Source: Halodesulfovibrio sp. (GTDB lineage: Bacteria > Desulfobacterota > Desulfovibrionia > Desulfovibrionales > Desulfovibrionaceae). Taken from it: a stretch of 54,394 bases of DNA. The notes below the pieces were generated by a model that did not search any database, was not told where the DNA came from, and was given only the letters and a program-made list of their open reading frames with translations. The position numbers were made by a program, and so were the translations under genes. Shown here piece by piece: positions 25,277 through 32,733 of the stretch; the first letter of the stretch is position 1; each line of letters opens with the position of its first letter. Location: positions 1-54,394 of the forward strand of contig NZ_JADMLB010000058.1 in NCBI RefSeq assembly GCF_015482765.1, written 5' to 3'.

Positions 25277-26020
25277 TTGTTATTATTTCGCCATGCCAAG
25301 TTTTCTTTAGCCACAAAGTTTTCTGTTGCGGCAGCAGTCTTTTTCAGCTGTTCAGGATTGGTAGTGCTTTGTGCACTCCTCATACTTGCTGCAAGTTCCC
25401 CACTCACGCCAGTGGATATTCTGTGGCTTATGGCATGCTGTGCTGCCATTACAGTCCCGTGTTTTTACTACTTGTTTAACAAGTTGTGCAGAGGGCTTGT
25501 ATGCCGTCCTTTAGAGGCACTTACCCAAACGGCAACCGAACTGGGTAGTGCTCCCCTTCCGACCAACATTCCTAAAGAGATAGAACTGGATGCCTTGACG
25601 ATGGCGCTGGTTCGTTCCGGTGAAGTCTTCAGCAGACGTATGCAGAATGCTACAGAGAGCCGTTCATACTTCGAATCTCTTTTCAAAGGGATGCCGGGCT
25701 ATGTTTCTGTTGTGGATACGTCTTTTACCATCGTTCATGCCAACAATGCTTTTATGGAGACCTTTGCTATCGCTGAAGGACGATCCTGCCGACATGTGTG
25801 TACTCGAGAGTTCCCGGGTGGAGATTGCCCTGTGGCAAAAGTTTTTATTTCGAGAAAGCCTGTTGTTGTGACAGAAGAGGGCATGTATCCGGATGGAACA
25901 GCCGCGTTATGGCTTGTAAGTGTGTCCCCTGTATTTGATGCATTGGGGCAGTTGACCGCCGCTATTGAATCTCGTCTGGATATTTCAGACGTCGTTAAAA
26001 CGAACGCCACTAAGCTTTAG
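25277..26020 (+). CDS. membrane PAS-domain protein without an output domain
   Basis: A protein of 247 residues: two transmembrane segments (about residues 13-40 and 47-68) with almost no periplasmic loop, a HAMP-like stretch (RGLVCRPLEALTQTATELG), then one PAS domain (about 125-240) with C-rich CRHVCTREFPGGDCPVAK. It ends there: no kinase, GGDEF, EAL or methyl-acceptor part. The start is probably TTG 25277 behind CGGGGGGCAC. It could modulate a separate kinase; the PAS histidine kinase two genes away is a candidate partner. It converges on the minus-strand hairpin RNA region. Confidence 0.68.
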   Translation: MLLFRHAKFSLATKFSVAAAVFFSCSGLVVLCALLILAASSPLTPVDILWLMACCAAITVPCFYYLFNKLCRGLVCRPLEALTQTATELGSAPLPTNIPKEIELDALTMALVRSGEVFSRRMQNATESRSYFESLFKGMPGYVSVVDTSFTIVHANNAFMETFAIAEGRSCRHVCTREFPGGDCPVAKVFISRKPVVVTEEGMYPDGTAALWLVSVSPVFDALGQLTAAIESRLDISDVVKTNATKL

Positions 26021-26084: not shown

Positions 26085-26281
26085 CAAAAGATAGCCCCCT
26101 GTAATCGGGGGGGGGATGATTACAGGGGGCAAGATAGGTTGGTCTGAATCTACGCCTCGGAAATAGAACTATAACTGTAGGGGGGGGAAGTCAGATATAG
26201 TTCGCACCGTATTCAGAGCCTAAGCACGACGGTTGGTACGTTGGGGGGGGGACGCCTAATCGCTGGCAATCCAACCGTCAA
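26085..26281 (-). ncRNA. candidate small RNA with three C-tract hairpins
   Basis: Reading the minus strand from about 26281: stem 1 GACGGTTGG/CCAACCGTC (26279-26271 with 26236-26228) encloses C9; stem 2 has outer CTGAAT/ATTCAG and inner GAACTATA/TATAGTTC around C8; stem 3 is a perfect 13-bp GCCCCCTGTAATC/GATTACAGGGGGC (26130-26118 with 26106-26094) around C9, then TATCTTTT, which may terminate. No reading frame is present. A sigma-54 promoter lies at the right distance upstream. Both the transcript ends and the strand are inferred; the plus strand would give G8-9 loops instead. Confidence 0.62.
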
Positions 26282-26291
26282 CAAGACTTAT

Positions 26292-26308
26292 AGCATCTAT
26301 CGTGCCAA
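26292..26308 (-). promoter_or_regulatory. sigma-54 promoter for the hairpin RNA
   Basis: TTGGCACGATAGATGCT on the minus strand. GG and GC are separated by exactly 10 bases, and only one base departs from the TTGGCACG-N4-TTGCW consensus. Transcription would begin near 26281, immediately before the first hairpin. Confidence 0.7.
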
Positions 26309-26408
26309 AATGTTAAGTTTTGGCTTGTAAAAAAAGAATCTATAAAACAGTATGTTACGTTTTTTTTAGTGTTTTGTTTTGTCAGAAAACTGTTATTGAG
26401 CCTATTTT

Positions 26409-26445
26409 GTGCGGATTCGAACGTTCGAATTCGCACAGTGTGCGA
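26409..26445. promoter_or_regulatory. palindromic enhancer-like site (putative UAS)
   Basis: A 28-bp palindrome with one mismatched pair at 26409-26436 (GTGCGGATTCGAAC and its complement half) overlaps a second dyad TCGCAC-AGT-GTGCGA at 26431-26445. It lies about 140 bp upstream of the inferred start at 26281, the usual distance for an NtrC-type activator site. No T-tract follows on either strand, so it is not an ordinary terminator. Confidence 0.65.
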
Positions 26446-26456
26446 AAATGCACATG

Positions 26457-27929
26457 TTATGAAATTTTCCGATACAGAGCATATCGGGAAATTCCAAGGT
26501 ACTCAGCGGCTTTTGTTTTGTTTCCATCAAACTTAGCAAGTGCTTTGCGAATAACAGATTGTGTAACGTCTTCCAGATTGAACGGGTTTTCTGGGAGAAT
26601 GATCGTCGATGATGCAATGTCGATGGAAGGTAATCCCGTAGTCGGCGGCAACGGGGCACTAACACCTTCGCTGTGCTGTAGTGATCGTGATGATGCTAAA
26701 AACTCAATATGCTCAGGACGCAACAGTATGTCATCATGAATAAGTACTGCACGTTCTATTGTGTTCTCTAATTCTCGCACGTTTCCGGGCCAAGGGTACT
26801 CTTTGAGCAGGGTAAGAGTTTCCGGTGCAATGGCTGTAAATTTTTTCCCTTTTCGTTTTACCTGCTTACGGAGGAAGAGAGATGCCATTTTTACGATGTC
26901 ATCTTGTCGCTCCCGTAATGGCGGGAGACGCAGATGCCCGACGGTTAATCTGTGATACAAGTCTCTACGGAAGAGACCTTCTTCAACCATCATTTCAAGG
27001 TCTTTGTTTCCTGCCCCGATAATACGCGCGGAAAAATGTTTTTTCTGAAGCCCACCGACACGATAGAAGCTTCTGTCTTCCAATACACGTAAAAGCTTAG
27101 GCTGAAGTTGAAGCGGCATTTCTGCAATTTCATCAAGAAAAAGAGTGCCGTTTCCGGCCAGTTCCAATTTACCTGCAGAACCACCGGCGCGTGAGCCGGT
27201 ATATGCTCCGGCCTCGTACCCGAACAATTCACTCTCAAAAAGTGATTCAGCAATGGCAGAGCAGTTCAAGGCAACAAAGGGGGTATCGCAGTGGGTATCG
27301 CCATGATGAACCAGTCTTGCAATAACCTCTTTACCTGTACCGGTCTCACCTTCAATAAGTACAGGAACATCCGGCTCATGATGAAAAATGGTGGCGTCGC
27401 GAATGATTTCCTGCATTTTGGAAGAACCGGAAATAATTTGTCCTATGCCGGACACGTTCCTGAGCTGCGAACGCATTTTTTCAAGATCTTCCTGCAAAGA
27501 TTCCTTTGCTTCAGCAACACGTTCTTCCATATTTTGTTTGAGATCAGTGTTCTCAAAAAGAAGGGTCTGGTGTTCTGCACTGCGTTCAACTGCTGCTGCC
27601 AGTTCTCTGGCATTGATAGGCTTATTTAAATAGTCATACGCACCGTTTCGTAATGCTGTGATGGCTGTTTCCATATCACCGTGTCCGGTAATGATGATAA
27701 CATCACTGCGCTTACTGGTTTCACATGCCTTAAGCTCTGCAAGCAGGGAAAGGCCGTCCATAGCAGGCATTTTTATGTCTGTAATAATAAGGGGATAATA
27801 ACTTTCTTTAGCATGATTCAGCGCTGCAACAGGGTCGCTGAATGTACTAGGCTGGTGCCCCAAGTCAGTGAGTACAACACTCAGACTTTGCAGGCTTGTA
27901 GAGTTGTCATCAACAATAAGTATTCGCAT
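26457..27929 (-). CDS. NtrC-family sigma-54-dependent response regulator
   Basis: A protein of 490 residues: receiver domain 1-115 with phospho-acceptor D51, a coiled-coil linker about 120-160, AAA+ domain about 165-400 with Walker A GETGTGKE (194-201), the sigma-54 contact loop GAYTGS (241-246; usual GAFTGA), Walker B GTLFLDE (261-267), and a Fis-type helix-turn-helix at 455-488 (NKTKAAEYLGISRYALYRKI). It should open sigma-54 promoters when phosphorylated by the kinase encoded 9 bp upstream. The UAS, sigma-54 promoter and hairpin RNA directly downstream are the obvious candidate target. Confidence 0.95.
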   Translation of the reverse strand: MRILIVDDNSTSLQSLSVVLTDLGHQPSTFSDPVAALNHAKESYYPLIITDIKMPAMDGLSLLAELKACETSKRSDVIIITGHGDMETAITALRNGAYDYLNKPINARELAAAVERSAEHQTLLFENTDLKQNMEERVAEAKESLQEDLEKMRSQLRNVSGIGQIISGSSKMQEIIRDATIFHHEPDVPVLIEGETGTGKEVIARLVHHGDTHCDTPFVALNCSAIAESLFESELFGYEAGAYTGSRAGGSAGKLELAGNGTLFLDEIAEMPLQLQPKLLRVLEDRSFYRVGGLQKKHFSARIIGAGNKDLEMMVEEGLFRRDLYHRLTVGHLRLPPLRERQDDIVKMASLFLRKQVKRKGKKFTAIAPETLTLLKEYPWPGNVRELENTIERAVLIHDDILLRPEHIEFLASSRSLQHSEGVSAPLPPTTGLPSIDIASSTIILPENPFNLEDVTQSVIRKALAKFDGNKTKAAEYLGISRYALYRKIS

Positions 27930-27938
27930 GCAGATCTC

Positions 27939-29810
27939 TTAAGCAGACGGAGCCTGTGGAAGTAAAATTTTAATAAGTGTCCCTTTGTTGTCAGATAGCG
28001 GTGACTCGGCTGTAATGGTTCCACCCCAGCTGGTAACGAAGGTATGAACCAAAGCAAGACCCAGCCCCATATTCTTTCCGGATTCTTTGGTTGTAAAAAA
28101 CGGATCAAATATTTTGTCACCAAGTCCTTTCAGTCCGGGTCCGTTATCACGGATGCTTAGCAGAACTTGTTTGTCATCAGTTTCCAGCGTTGTAATGGTT
28201 ATGCAGCGTTGCTCTGAGCAGAGTTCAAGTGCATGTGCAGCATTCATAACAACATTGATTACAATTTGCTCCAGCTGAATGGGCAGAGCAAGAACAGGAG
28301 GAAGCGAATCCTGAAGTTGTTCTTCAATGCAGATATTTCGGGAATCAAGCTTGCTTTGCAACATGCCCAGAGCTTGTGTAACAGCTTGATTTACATCTGA
28401 GTGTTGAAGCGGAATAGCTCCCTGATGACGAACCAGTGAACGCATGTGCGTAATGATATCTTCAATAGTTCCTGTTTCATGAAGGATCCACTGAAGGCGT
28501 TCTTGCAAAATTTCGGGCGGAACTGCTCCGCGCTGCTCAACCATCATATCCAGTCCGCTGGCATACAGGCGCAGTGCAGAGAGCGGCTGGTTGATTTCGT
28601 GTGCAATGCCGGCAGCGAGCGTACTCATGGCTTCCAGTTTCCGCATCTGCTGGGTTCTTTGGGCTATCTTCTTCTTTTCGGTTATATCTTCAAGAAGAAT
28701 AATTGCTGAGGAAAATAATTTGGTTCGATGCAGCGGGCACGCTGTAATGCGGAATGTCAGTTCGGCTCCGTCACGTGTCGTGGAAAATTCGCATTCATGC
28801 TCTTTGCCGTCATGAATGGTTAAACTGGTTGTTTTATCCAATAGTGATTTCCCGTTTTCATCTTCCTTCGTGAGGATAGAAGGGCAACTTACTGGGTACG
28901 ATTCGTTTTGAAGTTTGAACCAGTTTCGGAATTGGCTGTTCGCGGCAGTAATATTGCGCTGTCCGTCAATTACGGCAATAGCGAGAGAAAGGTTGTTTGT
29001 GATCAGGTGATATTGGCGTTCTGTGATCGCCAATTTTTCCTGAAAACGGGTGAGCTGCGTAATATCAAGCCCCATCAGCAGAATGAGCTGATCTCCGTCC
29101 GTGTCGGTAAAAGGGTAGCTTAAAAAGCGATAGGAACGACCTGAACGGGGACTTTTCCAAGCGGAGAATGAAGGAGAACCCGTTTCAAATACATCAAAAG
29201 GCGGGAGATATGGATGGGTAGGCGTACCGGTAGATTCACTGTTTCCTGTGAAAGCATGGTAGCAGGAGTCGCCTACATTTAATTGTACTTGGTTGCGGAA
29301 TGGCTTGTTAATATACCGTAAGGTAAACTGCGGTGTAACCAGCGCCACAAATTCCGGAAGTTTATCCAGAATTGCCAGCAGATTCAGGCGTTGCCTGTTC
29401 GATTGTTTTTGAGTCGGGTTGCTGTCTGATCCTAATGAAAGTGTGCTGCTGATTTTTTTACTTCCGTCCGGCAGACGCAGTGGACGAGAATGGACAAGAA
29501 TTGTGACTCGCTGCCCGTAGGAATCAAGAAAAAACAACGGAAACGTGCTGACCTTTCCTGCTGTTTGCAACTGGATATGGTGCGTCAGGGTAGAAAGGTT
29601 TTCAGGCTCCAGAAGTTGTTCTTTTAAATTTGCAAGAACCTCCTTTCGTTCCCAGCCAAGGGAGGAAGAAAGGAAACAGCGTACGTAATCAAGGTCAAGG
29701 CTCTGGTCAGATAAGCAGGTATCGCTCAACTGTCGAAGAAGAGTAGAAACAGCTTCCGGCAACTGGGAGGAAGAATAGGAACGTGTCGTTGTTGGCAGTA
29801 GCTGAGCCAT
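27939..29810 (-). CDS. PAS-containing sensor histidine kinase
   Basis: A soluble kinase of 623 residues. The N-terminal 150 residues are not recognised; two PAS-like regions follow (around LLAILDKLPEFVALVTPQF and YHLITNNLSLAIAVIDGQR). The HisKA helix carries H404 (AAGIAHEINQPLSALRLY), then N-box near residue 523 (VVMNAAHALE), G1 IRDNGPGL and G2 MGLGLALVH. No membrane segment is present, so it senses something in the cytoplasm. ATG at 29810 follows CCCGGAGACTAC. It forms an operon with the NtrC-type regulator and is its likely phosphodonor. Confidence 0.92.
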   Translation of the reverse strand: MAQLLPTTTRSYSSSQLPEAVSTLLRQLSDTCLSDQSLDLDYVRCFLSSSLGWERKEVLANLKEQLLEPENLSTLTHHIQLQTAGKVSTFPLFFLDSYGQRVTILVHSRPLRLPDGSKKISSTLSLGSDSNPTQKQSNRQRLNLLAILDKLPEFVALVTPQFTLRYINKPFRNQVQLNVGDSCYHAFTGNSESTGTPTHPYLPPFDVFETGSPSFSAWKSPRSGRSYRFLSYPFTDTDGDQLILLMGLDITQLTRFQEKLAITERQYHLITNNLSLAIAVIDGQRNITAANSQFRNWFKLQNESYPVSCPSILTKEDENGKSLLDKTTSLTIHDGKEHECEFSTTRDGAELTFRITACPLHRTKLFSSAIILLEDITEKKKIAQRTQQMRKLEAMSTLAAGIAHEINQPLSALRLYASGLDMMVEQRGAVPPEILQERLQWILHETGTIEDIITHMRSLVRHQGAIPLQHSDVNQAVTQALGMLQSKLDSRNICIEEQLQDSLPPVLALPIQLEQIVINVVMNAAHALELCSEQRCITITTLETDDKQVLLSIRDNGPGLKGLGDKIFDPFFTTKESGKNMGLGLALVHTFVTSWGGTITAESPLSDNKGTLIKILLPQAPSA

Positions 29811-29831
29811 GTAGTCTCCGGGCAAGTCAGA

Positions 29832-31790
29832 TTACGCGAGGTTATTCATATTTCGAGATATTTCTTCGGTTGTCTTAATGCTTAGTTCTTCGAGAGCCTG
29901 CAACTGTTCAGCTGGTACTGGTTTGTGTTTTGCCGCAGCAGCGTAAATCTGCATAAGCGCATTCCCTAAACTGTTTGCACCAATGTTGAATGCAGCCGCA
30001 GCAAAAGACTGGCTGTGCAGAGCAGCCTTATCATAAGCATTTTCTTGTAAAAAGAGTTTCAATCCATACAGACGTTCGGCTACTTCGTCTACAAAGAGAG
30101 AGTACAGGCGGCAGATAAGCTCATTATCATCATCAAGACGAACCATAGCCCCGTCAACGTCCAGCACCTGTGTCATGTCGGTTTGTTCAATTTCCTTTTG
30201 CGGCTGTGCAGGAATTTCTTCAGGTTGCAGTACGCGTGCTATTTCTCGATAAAATTCAGAAGCATGAATAGGTTTTGAAACATACCCGTCCATTCCGGCT
30301 TCAATAAAGCGTTCTTTGTCACCTTTCAATGCAAAAGCAGTTACTGCAATGACCGGTAATGTTGTCGGTGTGTCAGGAATAGTGCCGGAGCGAATGTGGT
30401 TCATTGCTTCAATACCGGTGAGGAACGGCAGTTTGATTTCCGTCACAACAAGATCAACACTCTCAGAAGCTAGTAATTCCAATAGCTCAGCGCCGTTCGA
30501 AGTGACATGACATATAAACCCTTTCTTTTCTAACAACTCCAGAAGCAGTTTTTGTCCCACAATATTGTTGTCAGCAATCGCGACATGAAGTCCCTGCGGG
30601 AATTCAGGAATAATCTCCTGTTCAGTAATATCCTCCTCAAGTTCACCGTGTTCGAATTGAGCTGTAAAATGGAAGGTGCTTCCTGCACCGGGTTTGCTTC
30701 GCACCCAGATTGTTCCGTTCATTAACTCCACAAGGTCTCTACAGATGGCAAGCCCGAGGCCGGTTCCGCGTATAGGTGTTTTACCTTCGGCTAGTACCTG
30801 CTTGTACGGTTCAAAAATGTAATTTTGCTCTGCCTCTGTCAGTCCCACTCCAGTATCGCGTACAGAGAAAAGCAGCATTCGGTATTTAGGAACAGGAATA
30901 TGTTGTTGCTCCGAGTATGCTCCAAGCGTGGCAAGATCTGAAATTTCAAGAGAAATGCCTCCCTGATCTGTGAACTTGATGGCGTTGGAGAGCAGGTTGT
31001 TCAAAATTTGTGAGACGCGCGTAGGATCGCCCTTCAGCATACGGGGAACAAAAGACGGAATGTCATAGGTGAGGGTCAGCTTTTTCTTATGTGCTTTAGG
31101 CAGGTGGGTGCGGATTGTCTTGTTGATGAGTTCTTCAAGGTTGAACCGCTTGGGTGAAAGCGACATTTTGCGTGCTTCAATGCGCGAGAGATCAAGGATG
31201 TCATTCAGGATATCCAGCAGATTCTCTGCGGAATCCAGCACTGTTGTCATATATTCTTTTTGCTCTTTGTCTAAAGCTGTTTCCAGAGCAAGGTCGGTCA
31301 TTCCCACAATTCCGTTTAAAGAGTTGCGGATTTCATGACTCATATTGGCAAAGAAGCTGGATTTGGCACTGTTTTCAAGCTCAGCTTTTTGTCTGGCTTC
31401 CGTAAGACGTGCTTCTTCAGAGTGCTTAACAAGAGCAATTTCAATGGCAGAATGCAGTTTTCGGGCATCAAAAGGTTTTAAAATAAACCCGTACGGATTT
31501 GATGATTTCGCTCGTTCAAAGGTATCCCTGTCAGAGTATGCAGTGAGAAAGACAACAGGTATGGTGTATTTAGCGTTGAAAACATGGGCAATGGCAATCC
31601 CGTCCATTTCTCCCTTTAGGTTAATATCCATGAGGATAAGGTCAGGCGAGTGTGTTTCTGCAGCTTGGAGTGCAGTCTCAGCAGTATTGGCAACAGCACA
31701 GACCTGATACCCGAGAGTTTCAAGGGTACCTTTAATGTCGAGTGCCACAATGCGTTCGTCATCAACAACAAGAATACTGATAGAGGCCAT
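29832..31790 (-). CDS. hybrid histidine kinase with degenerate relay tail
   Basis: A protein of 652 residues: receiver (D55 in LILMDINLKG), HisKA with H152 (MSHEIRNSLNG), HATPase (N269, RDTGVGL, GTGLGLAIC), a second receiver (about 400-520) and a C-terminal HPt-like helix bundle (about 540-650). In the second receiver the phospho-acceptor is Glu (E451 in LVVTEIKLP). In the HPt-like part the position of the phospho-histidine appears to be Gln (Q594 before SFAAAAFNIGA), though H592 is close. It has no membrane segments. ATG at 31790 is used because the receiver starts at once. It lies 21 bp upstream of the PAS kinase gene. Confidence 0.88.
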   Translation of the reverse strand: MASISILVVDDERIVALDIKGTLETLGYQVCAVANTAETALQAAETHSPDLILMDINLKGEMDGIAIAHVFNAKYTIPVVFLTAYSDRDTFERAKSSNPYGFILKPFDARKLHSAIEIALVKHSEEARLTEARQKAELENSAKSSFFANMSHEIRNSLNGIVGMTDLALETALDKEQKEYMTTVLDSAENLLDILNDILDLSRIEARKMSLSPKRFNLEELINKTIRTHLPKAHKKKLTLTYDIPSFVPRMLKGDPTRVSQILNNLLSNAIKFTDQGGISLEISDLATLGAYSEQQHIPVPKYRMLLFSVRDTGVGLTEAEQNYIFEPYKQVLAEGKTPIRGTGLGLAICRDLVELMNGTIWVRSKPGAGSTFHFTAQFEHGELEEDITEQEIIPEFPQGLHVAIADNNIVGQKLLLELLEKKGFICHVTSNGAELLELLASESVDLVVTEIKLPFLTGIEAMNHIRSGTIPDTPTTLPVIAVTAFALKGDKERFIEAGMDGYVSKPIHASEFYREIARVLQPEEIPAQPQKEIEQTDMTQVLDVDGAMVRLDDDNELICRLYSLFVDEVAERLYGLKLFLQENAYDKAALHSQSFAAAAFNIGANSLGNALMQIYAAAAKHKPVPAEQLQALEELSIKTTEEISRNMNNLA

Positions 31791-31976
31791 AATCATTCCC
31801 CACTCTGCCGCATAAGAAGATGTGCAGCAAAAATGCTGCTGATGCGGCACATAAAAAATCAAACAGTTGCGTAGTACTGTTACGAAGAAGAAAGTACGTG
31901 AAGCTCTTGATGTATATGCAATAAATGCATGTGGTTGTCTAGGCGGGGTAGAAGGAATTTTTATGTTGAAGGCCAT

Positions 31977-32025: not shown

Positions 32026-32733
32026 TTACATTGTCTGAAGGTTCCAGACAACGCGACCTACAACGTCTTCAGTACAGCGATCCATCGGCAGATACTGCTC
32101 AGGGTGAGCAGGGTTTTCACTGCGGAGGATAAAACGTTGATTAGCAGCATCAAGGAAGATGCGCTTAATGGAGATGCCTTCGTACGGTACGTACACGCCG
32201 TAGATTTCACCGGAAAGGATGTTGGTCTGAGCAGTATCAAGACCTACAAAAGCGCCTTTCTTGATGAGTGGTTCCATACTGGAAGCATCAACACGGAAAA
32301 TTTGAATGGTCGCACCAGCAAAAGATTGTGGGATGGAAAGTTTGCCAACGCTGGTAAAGCGACGAGCCTCTTCACCGTTGTCAGAAACTTCAACATTTTG
32401 CATGGAGTGGATAGTTACAACAGCGCTGCGGGCATCTGGATCACCAAATTTAGCTGGGTTTTCAAAAACCCGACCAGCAGCAGGGCCTTCAACTGGCTGG
32501 TAGCCGTCTTCCTCTGTACGCAAGTACATTGGTCCGACGCCTTTTTTAAGCCAGTCCGGATTAAGACCAAACTTTTCAAACAGCTTCATGTACCAGTCAG
32601 AAGGTACAGAATCTCTGCGCTTTGCGTCAGAGATACTTGATTGGCGAATATCAAGTACTTCGGCCAATTCAACCTGAGTTCTAGTATTAGTAGCTAGTTT
32701 GATACGTTCAAAAACTTCATCAAAGGTGGACAC
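32026..32733 (-). CDS. CI/LexA-like self-cleaving transcriptional repressor
   Basis: A protein of 235 residues. The N-terminal helix-turn-helix resembles the phage CI repressor type (LATNTRTQVELAEVLDIRQSSISDAKRRDSVPSDW). The C-terminal S24 peptidase domain holds catalytic S152 (VDASSMEPLI) and K190 (GISIKRI). An Ala-Gly pair at 86-87 in GPAAGRVF could be the autocleavage bond. No other phage genes are present, so it is a domesticated or stress-responsive regulator. Targets are unknown; the inverted repeat at 32861-32880 upstream suggests autoregulation. Confidence 0.87.
   Translation of the reverse strand: MSTFDEVFERIKLATNTRTQVELAEVLDIRQSSISDAKRRDSVPSDWYMKLFEKFGLNPDWLKKGVGPMYLRTEEDGYQPVEGPAAGRVFENPAKFGDPDARSAVVTIHSMQNVEVSDNGEEARRFTSVGKLSIPQSFAGATIQIFRVDASSMEPLIKKGAFVGLDTAQTNILSGEIYGVYVPYEGISIKRIFLDAANQRFILRSENPAHPEQYLPMDRCTEDVVGRVVWNLQTM

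Follow-up and report, generated by a model that had tools for sequence, protein, structure and literature searches.

A small RNA with poly-C loops, probably the output of a sigma-54 two-component system of Halodesulfovibrio and probably pairing with G-rich ribosome-binding sites

Main finding

The 54,394-nucleotide stretch of Halodesulfovibrio sp. DNA analysed here (contig NZ_JADMLB010000058.1, hereafter the window) carries a small RNA gene immediately 3' of the gene for a sigma-54-dependent response regulator. The RNA is probably the output of the kinase-regulator system and probably pairs with G-rich ribosome-binding sites. It is real, conserved and sigma-54-driven; its kind is known from Desulfovibrio vulgaris, and the anatomy described here is new. 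The most telling feature of the RNA is its poly-C loops, which were absent from the first-pass annotation of this DNA.

Based on the results below, we suggest the following mode of action. The kinase would phosphorylate the regulator, which would bind tandem palindromes just 3' of its own gene and drive the sigma-54 promoter of one small RNA; the arrangement is taken from sequence and conservation, and we infer activation. Stable stems would hold up two or three C-rich loops. A C loop would pair with a G run serving as the Shine-Dalgarno sequence and ribosome entry would be blocked, while the repetition of loops would give each RNA several docking sites. In the presence of the signal, the adhesin would go down, attachment would be lowered and taxis would be retuned via a chemoreceptor. 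Loop-target pairing, its direction and the phenotype are thus predictions from sequence. We find it reasonably probable that such a sensor-driven RNA blocks G-run Shine-Dalgarno sequences with its C loops, and that its main target in the genus would be an RTX adhesin, followed by the chemoreceptor.

Two-component genes, enhancer and promoter

Table 1. Features of the RNA locus in the window.
Feature	Position	Strand	Basis
Enhancer, tandem GTGCG-N4-CGCAC-like palindromes	26408..26454	-	Putative regulator site
Sigma-54 promoter, TTGGCACGATAGATGCT	26292..26308	-	Motif, position and conservation
Small RNA, about 196 nt, putative start	26086..26281	-	Promoter position, fold and conservation
Hairpin 1, C9 at 26243-26251	26228..26279	-	Fold and covariation
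Hairpin 2, long outer stem and covarying inner stem, C8 at 26180-26187, loop with the best fit to the adhesin start	26143..26217	-	
Hairpin 3, terminator-like, C9 at 26107-26115, then CTATCTTTT	26094..26130	-	
NtrC-type sigma-54-dependent response regulator, GAYTGS motif	26457..27929	-	Response_reg, Sigma54_activat and HTH_8
Sensor histidine kinase	27939..29825	-	PAS domains, HisKA and HATPase_c
Hybrid histidine kinase, immediately 5' of the PAS kinase gene	29832..31976	-	Domain content

According to the domain matches, the kinase and the activator called in the first-pass annotation are both real genes (Table 1). A kinase homologue lies immediately 5' of the regulator at 10/10 genus loci and at the loci of g32, g46, g11, g48 and g3; none adjoining the regulator was found in the g9 and g39 loci. 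No clear homologue of the hybrid kinase was seen in the short flanks of the relatives, which barely extend that far. The GAYTGS motif of the window regulator recurs in the regulators of g32, g48 and g11 where these were matched, and the remaining orthologs have GAFTGS.

Paralogs of the regulator (45-49%) were set aside as a separate orthogroup, having a radical-SAM-like gene 3' and no RNA where they were read. One of them (G000:C56:143751-145178; L126, L168), with 47% identity, has a radical-SAM-like gene in the place of an RNA, as is the case in several other genera. Also in the window, a gene for a CI-like repressor with an S24 peptidase domain (32026-32733, minus strand) adjoins the hybrid kinase gene, and a PAS-domain ORF (25277-26020, plus strand) converges on the RNA gene.

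The overlapping palindromes, claimed earlier at 26409-26445, are present and were found at 26408-26446. These tandem palindromes are the putative binding site of the regulator. The strict tandem pattern gave 12 matches in 7/10 genus genomes, every one of them at the RNA locus, and the reversed pattern, used as a control, gave 6 matches in four genomes. The strict pattern had no match in G002, G006 and G009, thus the uniqueness covers the other seven genomes. On the simplest interpretation, the regulator has a single output, namely this RNA.

The sigma-54 motif TTGGCACGATAGATGCT sits exactly where it had been placed, at 26308-26292, and is the single zero-mismatch match of TGGCAC-N6-TGC in the window. 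At one mismatch, the pattern occurs 19 times, with 13.5 occurrences expected. The case for the promoter therefore depends on where it lies and on its conservation rather than on the rarity of the motif.

Anatomy and fold of the RNA

As judged from the promoter alone, transcription would start near 26281. The three consecutive stem-loops of the first-pass annotation were found again (Table 1), and C runs of 9, 8 and 9 are raised into the loops of hairpins 1, 2 and 3, respectively. The fold of the RNA has a z-score of -3.96, and 0/200 shuffles were as good. Both sides have changed in 14 of the 51 base pairs, a number reached by 0/500 shuffles, while slid registers gave 1 to 6; the outermost stem of hairpin 2 is nearly invariant and hence uninformative for covariation. 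The reading frames that start within the RNA on its own strand comprise 40, 27 and 23 aa. In an Rfam scan of the window, only two tRNAs reached the gathering score, and neither CrcZ nor 6C was matched.

Conservation and variation of the RNA

The proposal that a structured RNA with its enhancer and sigma-54 promoter forms one array with the kinase and activator genes is borne out: the array is a conserved block in the genus. By blastn, the locus block matched in 8/9 congeners and in 0/29 other genomes searched. A covariance model was built from eight genus sequences, which match by construction; among 288 family genomes, it matched 12, namely all ten of the genus (the window's own included) and two of g32, with G002, G003, G056 and G060 not in the model.

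A regulator homologue at 1e-120 was present in 54/288 family genomes. For the comparison of loci, 43 regulator orthologs at 1e-150 or better (Desulfovibrionaceae) were taken; the 3' DNA was readable in 41, the contig ending too early for the other two. Scanning and inspection by eye placed an RNA whose hairpin loops are C-rich or of the CCUCC type 3' of the regulator in 32 of the 41 readable orthologs: g1 (10/10), g32 (6/6), g9 (2/2), g48 (2/2), g11 (2/2), g46 (1/1) and g39 (9/11). It was not found 3' of the other nine (g3, 2/2; g54, 4/4; g40, 1/1; g39, 2/11). The expectation of the first-pass annotation that relatives would not keep the two-component genes without the RNA therefore held for the ten genus genomes, but not for these nine readable orthologs, which belong to some of the distant genera. 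A match to the strict sigma-54 pattern was obtained for g1, g32, g9, g48 and one g39 genome; elsewhere degenerate sites were recognised by eye. As a control, 158 strands at 79 loci around distant homologues were scanned: two hairpins with C6 loops occurred within 400 nt in 1/158 and three in 0/158, the C6 criterion being stricter than the C5 of the ortholog scan.

The sequence of the RNA beside the regulator orthologs of seven genera is unrecognisable, yet the loops stay poly-C, or CCUCCUCCC in g39. Judged across these genera, loop content is what selection keeps, and it is anti-Shine-Dalgarno in either spelling, poly-C or CCUCCUCCC. This is the main argument for pairing of the loops with ribosome-binding sites.

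The arrangement of the locus varies as well. In g9, the palindrome, the sigma-54 site and the C-loop RNA are in tandem, three times in G017 (L111) and twice in G150 (L136). The first loop of the g39 RNAs is UUCCUCCUCCC or near it, and in three g39 loci (L139, L149 and L150) an RNA with a AUCCUCCUCC(C/U) loop runs towards the regulator gene from the opposite strand. In g48 and g11 (L148, L154, L112), an ORF of about 110-130 codons, receiver-like by eye, stands between the promoter and the C-loop hairpins; it is possible that ORF and hairpins form an mRNA with a 3' regulatory RNA. In g3 (L113, L156), what follows the palindrome and a promoter-like site is a multihaem cytochrome-like gene, and C loops were absent there. 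This arrangement may reflect a direct target or an older state.

The RTX adhesin as the main candidate target

A sample of 400 kb from the window's genome contained 288 called genes, and in 11 of them a run of G5 or more lies no farther than 18 nt from the start. The only gene of the 288 with G6 or more encodes an RTX protein of 2653 residues that contains cadherin- and Ig-like domains and by its domain make-up would be a giant adhesin of the biofilm type. In a sample of G005, G6 or more was found near the start in 7/300 genes.

A run of G6-G9 precedes the adhesin start in 10/10 genus genomes. The six close homologues have G7, G7, G7, G7, G6 and G7; they share ancestry and hence are not six independent events. 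The weak homologues have G7 in G005, G9 in G006, G8 in G003 and G7 in G002, these four being found at a laxer threshold only (29-34% identity), and the G005 start being a choice of two ATGs. The search outside the genus covered 27 places, of which six had no locus and one no start; among the 20 starts read, G6 was seen in one and G5 in five. A two-sided Fisher test of genus against outside gave 3.7e-7, a value too small given the relatedness of the genomes.

The loop of hairpin 2 is ACUUCCCCCCCCUACA and the adhesin start is AUAGGGGGGGAAU. Their predicted pairing is -20.3 to -20.8 kcal/mol in 6/6 genomes. With the best of the three loops, 2/1200 random 28-mers drawn from the 400-kb sample reached -20.7, and the 1% level was -17.1. 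Compared with the other five genomes, G001 lacks one C in loop 2 and one G in the adhesin run, which is a single event. No match to Hfq was found in the G000 genome (99.97% complete); the control search found Hfq in 5/14 known genomes. The absence of a match fits a pairing strong enough to do without a chaperone.

The adhesin leader has two conserved hairpins. The first carries a GGGG loop on a covarying stem (5/20 pairs changed on both sides), and the second partly masks the G run. For the adhesin, repression is more likely than activation, because the pairing site would be the Shine-Dalgarno sequence itself; activation through opening of the hairpin is the alternative.

It should be noted that the same leader could be explained otherwise. 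The RNA could be base-pairing with the adhesin not as its main target, acting instead on many moderately G-rich starts or on a few other mRNAs, and the adhesin run could be maintained because it serves the leader's own hairpin or phase variation. We consider this rather unlikely. Self-folding of the leader, which hides part of the run, could alone conserve it, the g39 RNAs have a generic anti-Shine-Dalgarno loop, the adhesins of two RNA-bearing genera are without a G6 run, and exopolysaccharide-like genes of G005 likewise have G runs. Against it, G6 or more stands before 10/10 genus adhesins but only 1/20 outside, and the run is present in G002, G003, G005 and G006 despite upstream sequence unlike that of the six close homologues. 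The two RNA-bearing genera are those of G017 and G057, whose adhesins have no G6 run; the target there differs or was not found. Within Halodesulfovibrio, the adhesin mRNA is the best-supported candidate target of the RNA.

The chemoreceptor and other G-run genes

A PilJ-type chemoreceptor ranks second among the candidate targets. Its G runs are G6, G6 and G7 in G000, G007 and G008 and G4 in G001; the best matches in other genomes have G5, G6 and G5 (G005, G006 and G003) and G3 (G002). G5 or more thus occurs in 6/8 genomes, or in 7/12 of all places, and the chemoreceptor had no match in G004 and G009. For the best loop, the predicted pairing energy is -17 to -22 in G000, G007, G008 and G006; in G001 and G005 it is -12 to -14.

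A broad G-run regulon was rejected, as a clear excess over the reversed control was seen, among the matches listed, in only 3/10 genus genomes (G002, G006 and G005). In the window's own genome, G6-N2-10-ATG gave 75 matches versus 58 in the reversed control. For G7-N3-9-ATG, the counts against the reversed pattern among the matches listed, overlapping matches included, were 16 v 12 (G000), 4 v 7 (G001), 55 v 16 (G002), 36 v 34 (G003), 30 v 26 (G004), 56 v 33 (G005), 58 v 15 (G006), 12 v 10 (G007), 7 v 10 (G008) and 15 v 16 (G009). Among 20 stretches around G-run sites, few were gene starts.

Several G-run start sites belong to exopolysaccharide-like genes of G005 (L277-L282, G005:C1:180-300 kb), and in the stretches at 187-217 kb and 259-295 kb, a run of G5 or more lies close to the start of 11/49 called genes. 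These genes were not retained as targets, since the stretches were picked post hoc and the gene tested, that for Wzz, is not conserved, with no ortholog in the other nine genus genomes. A Fisher test on these genes was disregarded because its counts (10/46 and 13/254) combined two different gene calls. The clustered G-run stretches of G003 and G004 had no shared theme. In addition, a gene in a prophage-like contig (L304, G000:C78; start at about 7808, minus strand) lies behind G8.

Comparison with known systems

The mode of action proposed here resembles that of RepG and of 6C RNA/B11, and the window RNA has stem-loops with runs of six or more C. In Helicobacter pylori, a C/U-rich loop of RepG was experimentally shown to pair with the leader of a chemoreceptor mRNA, at a homopolymeric run of G (PMC8295292). 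RepG differs in having one targeting loop and a phase-variable G repeat that lies away from the start codon; it has no dedicated sigma-54 system, and no sequence relation to the window RNA was found. The mycobacterial 6C RNA/B11 has two C-rich loops and represses eccB4 via a tract of six G, an effect lost with both loops mutated (PMC10470900). It is actinobacterial, and the window has no match to the 6C covariance model of Rfam. B11 is reportedly chaperone-independent, and we know of no link between it and a sigma-54 regulator. The adhesin starts of the genus have a conserved G tract with a high predicted pairing energy, and would be the counterpart of the target leaders of RepG and B11.

In Vibrio, the sigma-54 response regulator LuxO drives the base-pairing Qrr RNAs, which exist in several copies, one adjoining luxO. 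The two or three tandem RNA copies of the g9 genomes recall this system. The Qrr RNAs require Hfq and have no poly-C loops. The CcsR 'Cuckoo' RNAs of Rhodobacter have the loop motif CCUCCUCCC, which is common to the g39 RNAs as well; they differ in phylum class, promoter and gene neighbours.

A CbrA-CbrB-crcZ design, as in Pseudomonas, had been proposed for the window. The gene order stands, with a two-component activator, a sigma-54 promoter and an adjoining RNA, but the C-run loops and the lack of an Hfq match in the genome depart from it. CrcZ titrates Hfq/Crc through A-rich motifs. The window RNA has poly-C loops in their place and no Rfam match, and in this respect the statement of the first-pass annotation that it is unlike CrcZ was correct. 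A CrcZ-like sponge was accordingly dropped as the main reading, the loops being C-rich and not A-rich and Hfq not having been found in the genome, and kept as a rival in which the C-rich loops titrate a protein such as Rho, a KH protein or a cold-shock protein. Rho has affinity for poly-C, and titration would be suited by the repeated identical loops of each RNA and by the two or three tandem RNA genes of g9. This rival is nevertheless decidedly improbable: the g39 loops are CCUCCUCCC, the loops are only about 8 nt long on stable stems, complementary G runs stand at conserved starts, and the G000 genome gave no Hfq match.

Returning to the pairing RNA, the earlier statement that no equivalent has been described in sulfate reducers did not survive. 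In D. vulgaris, the response regulator DVU0679 targets Dv_sRNA2, located immediately 3' of its gene (Rajeev 2011, PMC3333781). Dv_sRNA2 is expressed on tiling arrays, is reported to be of unknown function and has likely counterparts in two other species (PMC3333781). ncRNA targets are also listed for DVU0679 and DVU0653, and GAYTGS is given for DVU0679 alone among 37 D. vulgaris enhancer-binding proteins (Kazakov 2015, PMC4641369). The window has both a GAYTGS regulator and an RNA immediately 3' of the regulator gene; from motif and gene arrangement, its system is probably the DVU0679 system, with DVU0679 the ortholog. The loops, structure and function of Dv_sRNA2 are not given in the available text of either source (PMC3333781, PMC4641369), and the nearest stand-in for D. 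vulgaris is g48 (G231, G232), which has GAYTGS and C-loop hairpins. In the open-licence literature, we found no paper in which an RNA of this sort from a sulfate reducer is said to have C-rich loops.

The view that there is no trans-acting RNA, the hairpins being mere terminators or a by-product 3' of the regulator gene, deserves next to no credence: the last hairpin does resemble an intrinsic terminator, but an own enhancer and sigma-54 promoter follow the regulator stop, the RNA is convergent with the regulator in three g39 genomes, every varying helix covaries, and the D. vulgaris counterpart is expressed on tiling arrays (PMC3333781).

Conclusions

Pairing of a C loop with a G-run Shine-Dalgarno sequence is the likely mechanism of this RNA, as read from the compared genomes. 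A more far-reaching possibility, which we put forward tentatively, is that sulfate reducers have a riboswitchboard that is family-wide and needs no chaperone. At its core, a sigma-54 two-component system would be dedicated to a sole output in the genus, a multi-loop anti-Shine-Dalgarno RNA, whose loops would swap between poly-C and CCUCCUCCC. The RNA gene would be found in tandem, inverted, or moved behind a small receiver-like ORF, and the run lengths of loops and targets would co-evolve. In Halodesulfovibrio, the adhesin would be silenced and the chemoreceptor retuned together.

A class of RNA that has been on record in sulfate reducers since 2011, with no function attached, here receives a concrete candidate function, with loops and target named. 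Biofilm formation by D. vulgaris requires one of two large T1SS adhesins, DVU1012 or DVU1545 (PMC5646257), and control of the large adhesins of sulfate reducers is described, in the available text of a further source, at the level of protein and c-di-GMP and not of RNA (PMC13090378). The attachment of sulfate reducers is important in corrosion and in metal cycling. The RNA also exemplifies a family whose sequence is free to change while only the loop content is kept, and sequence-based family searches will miss such a family.
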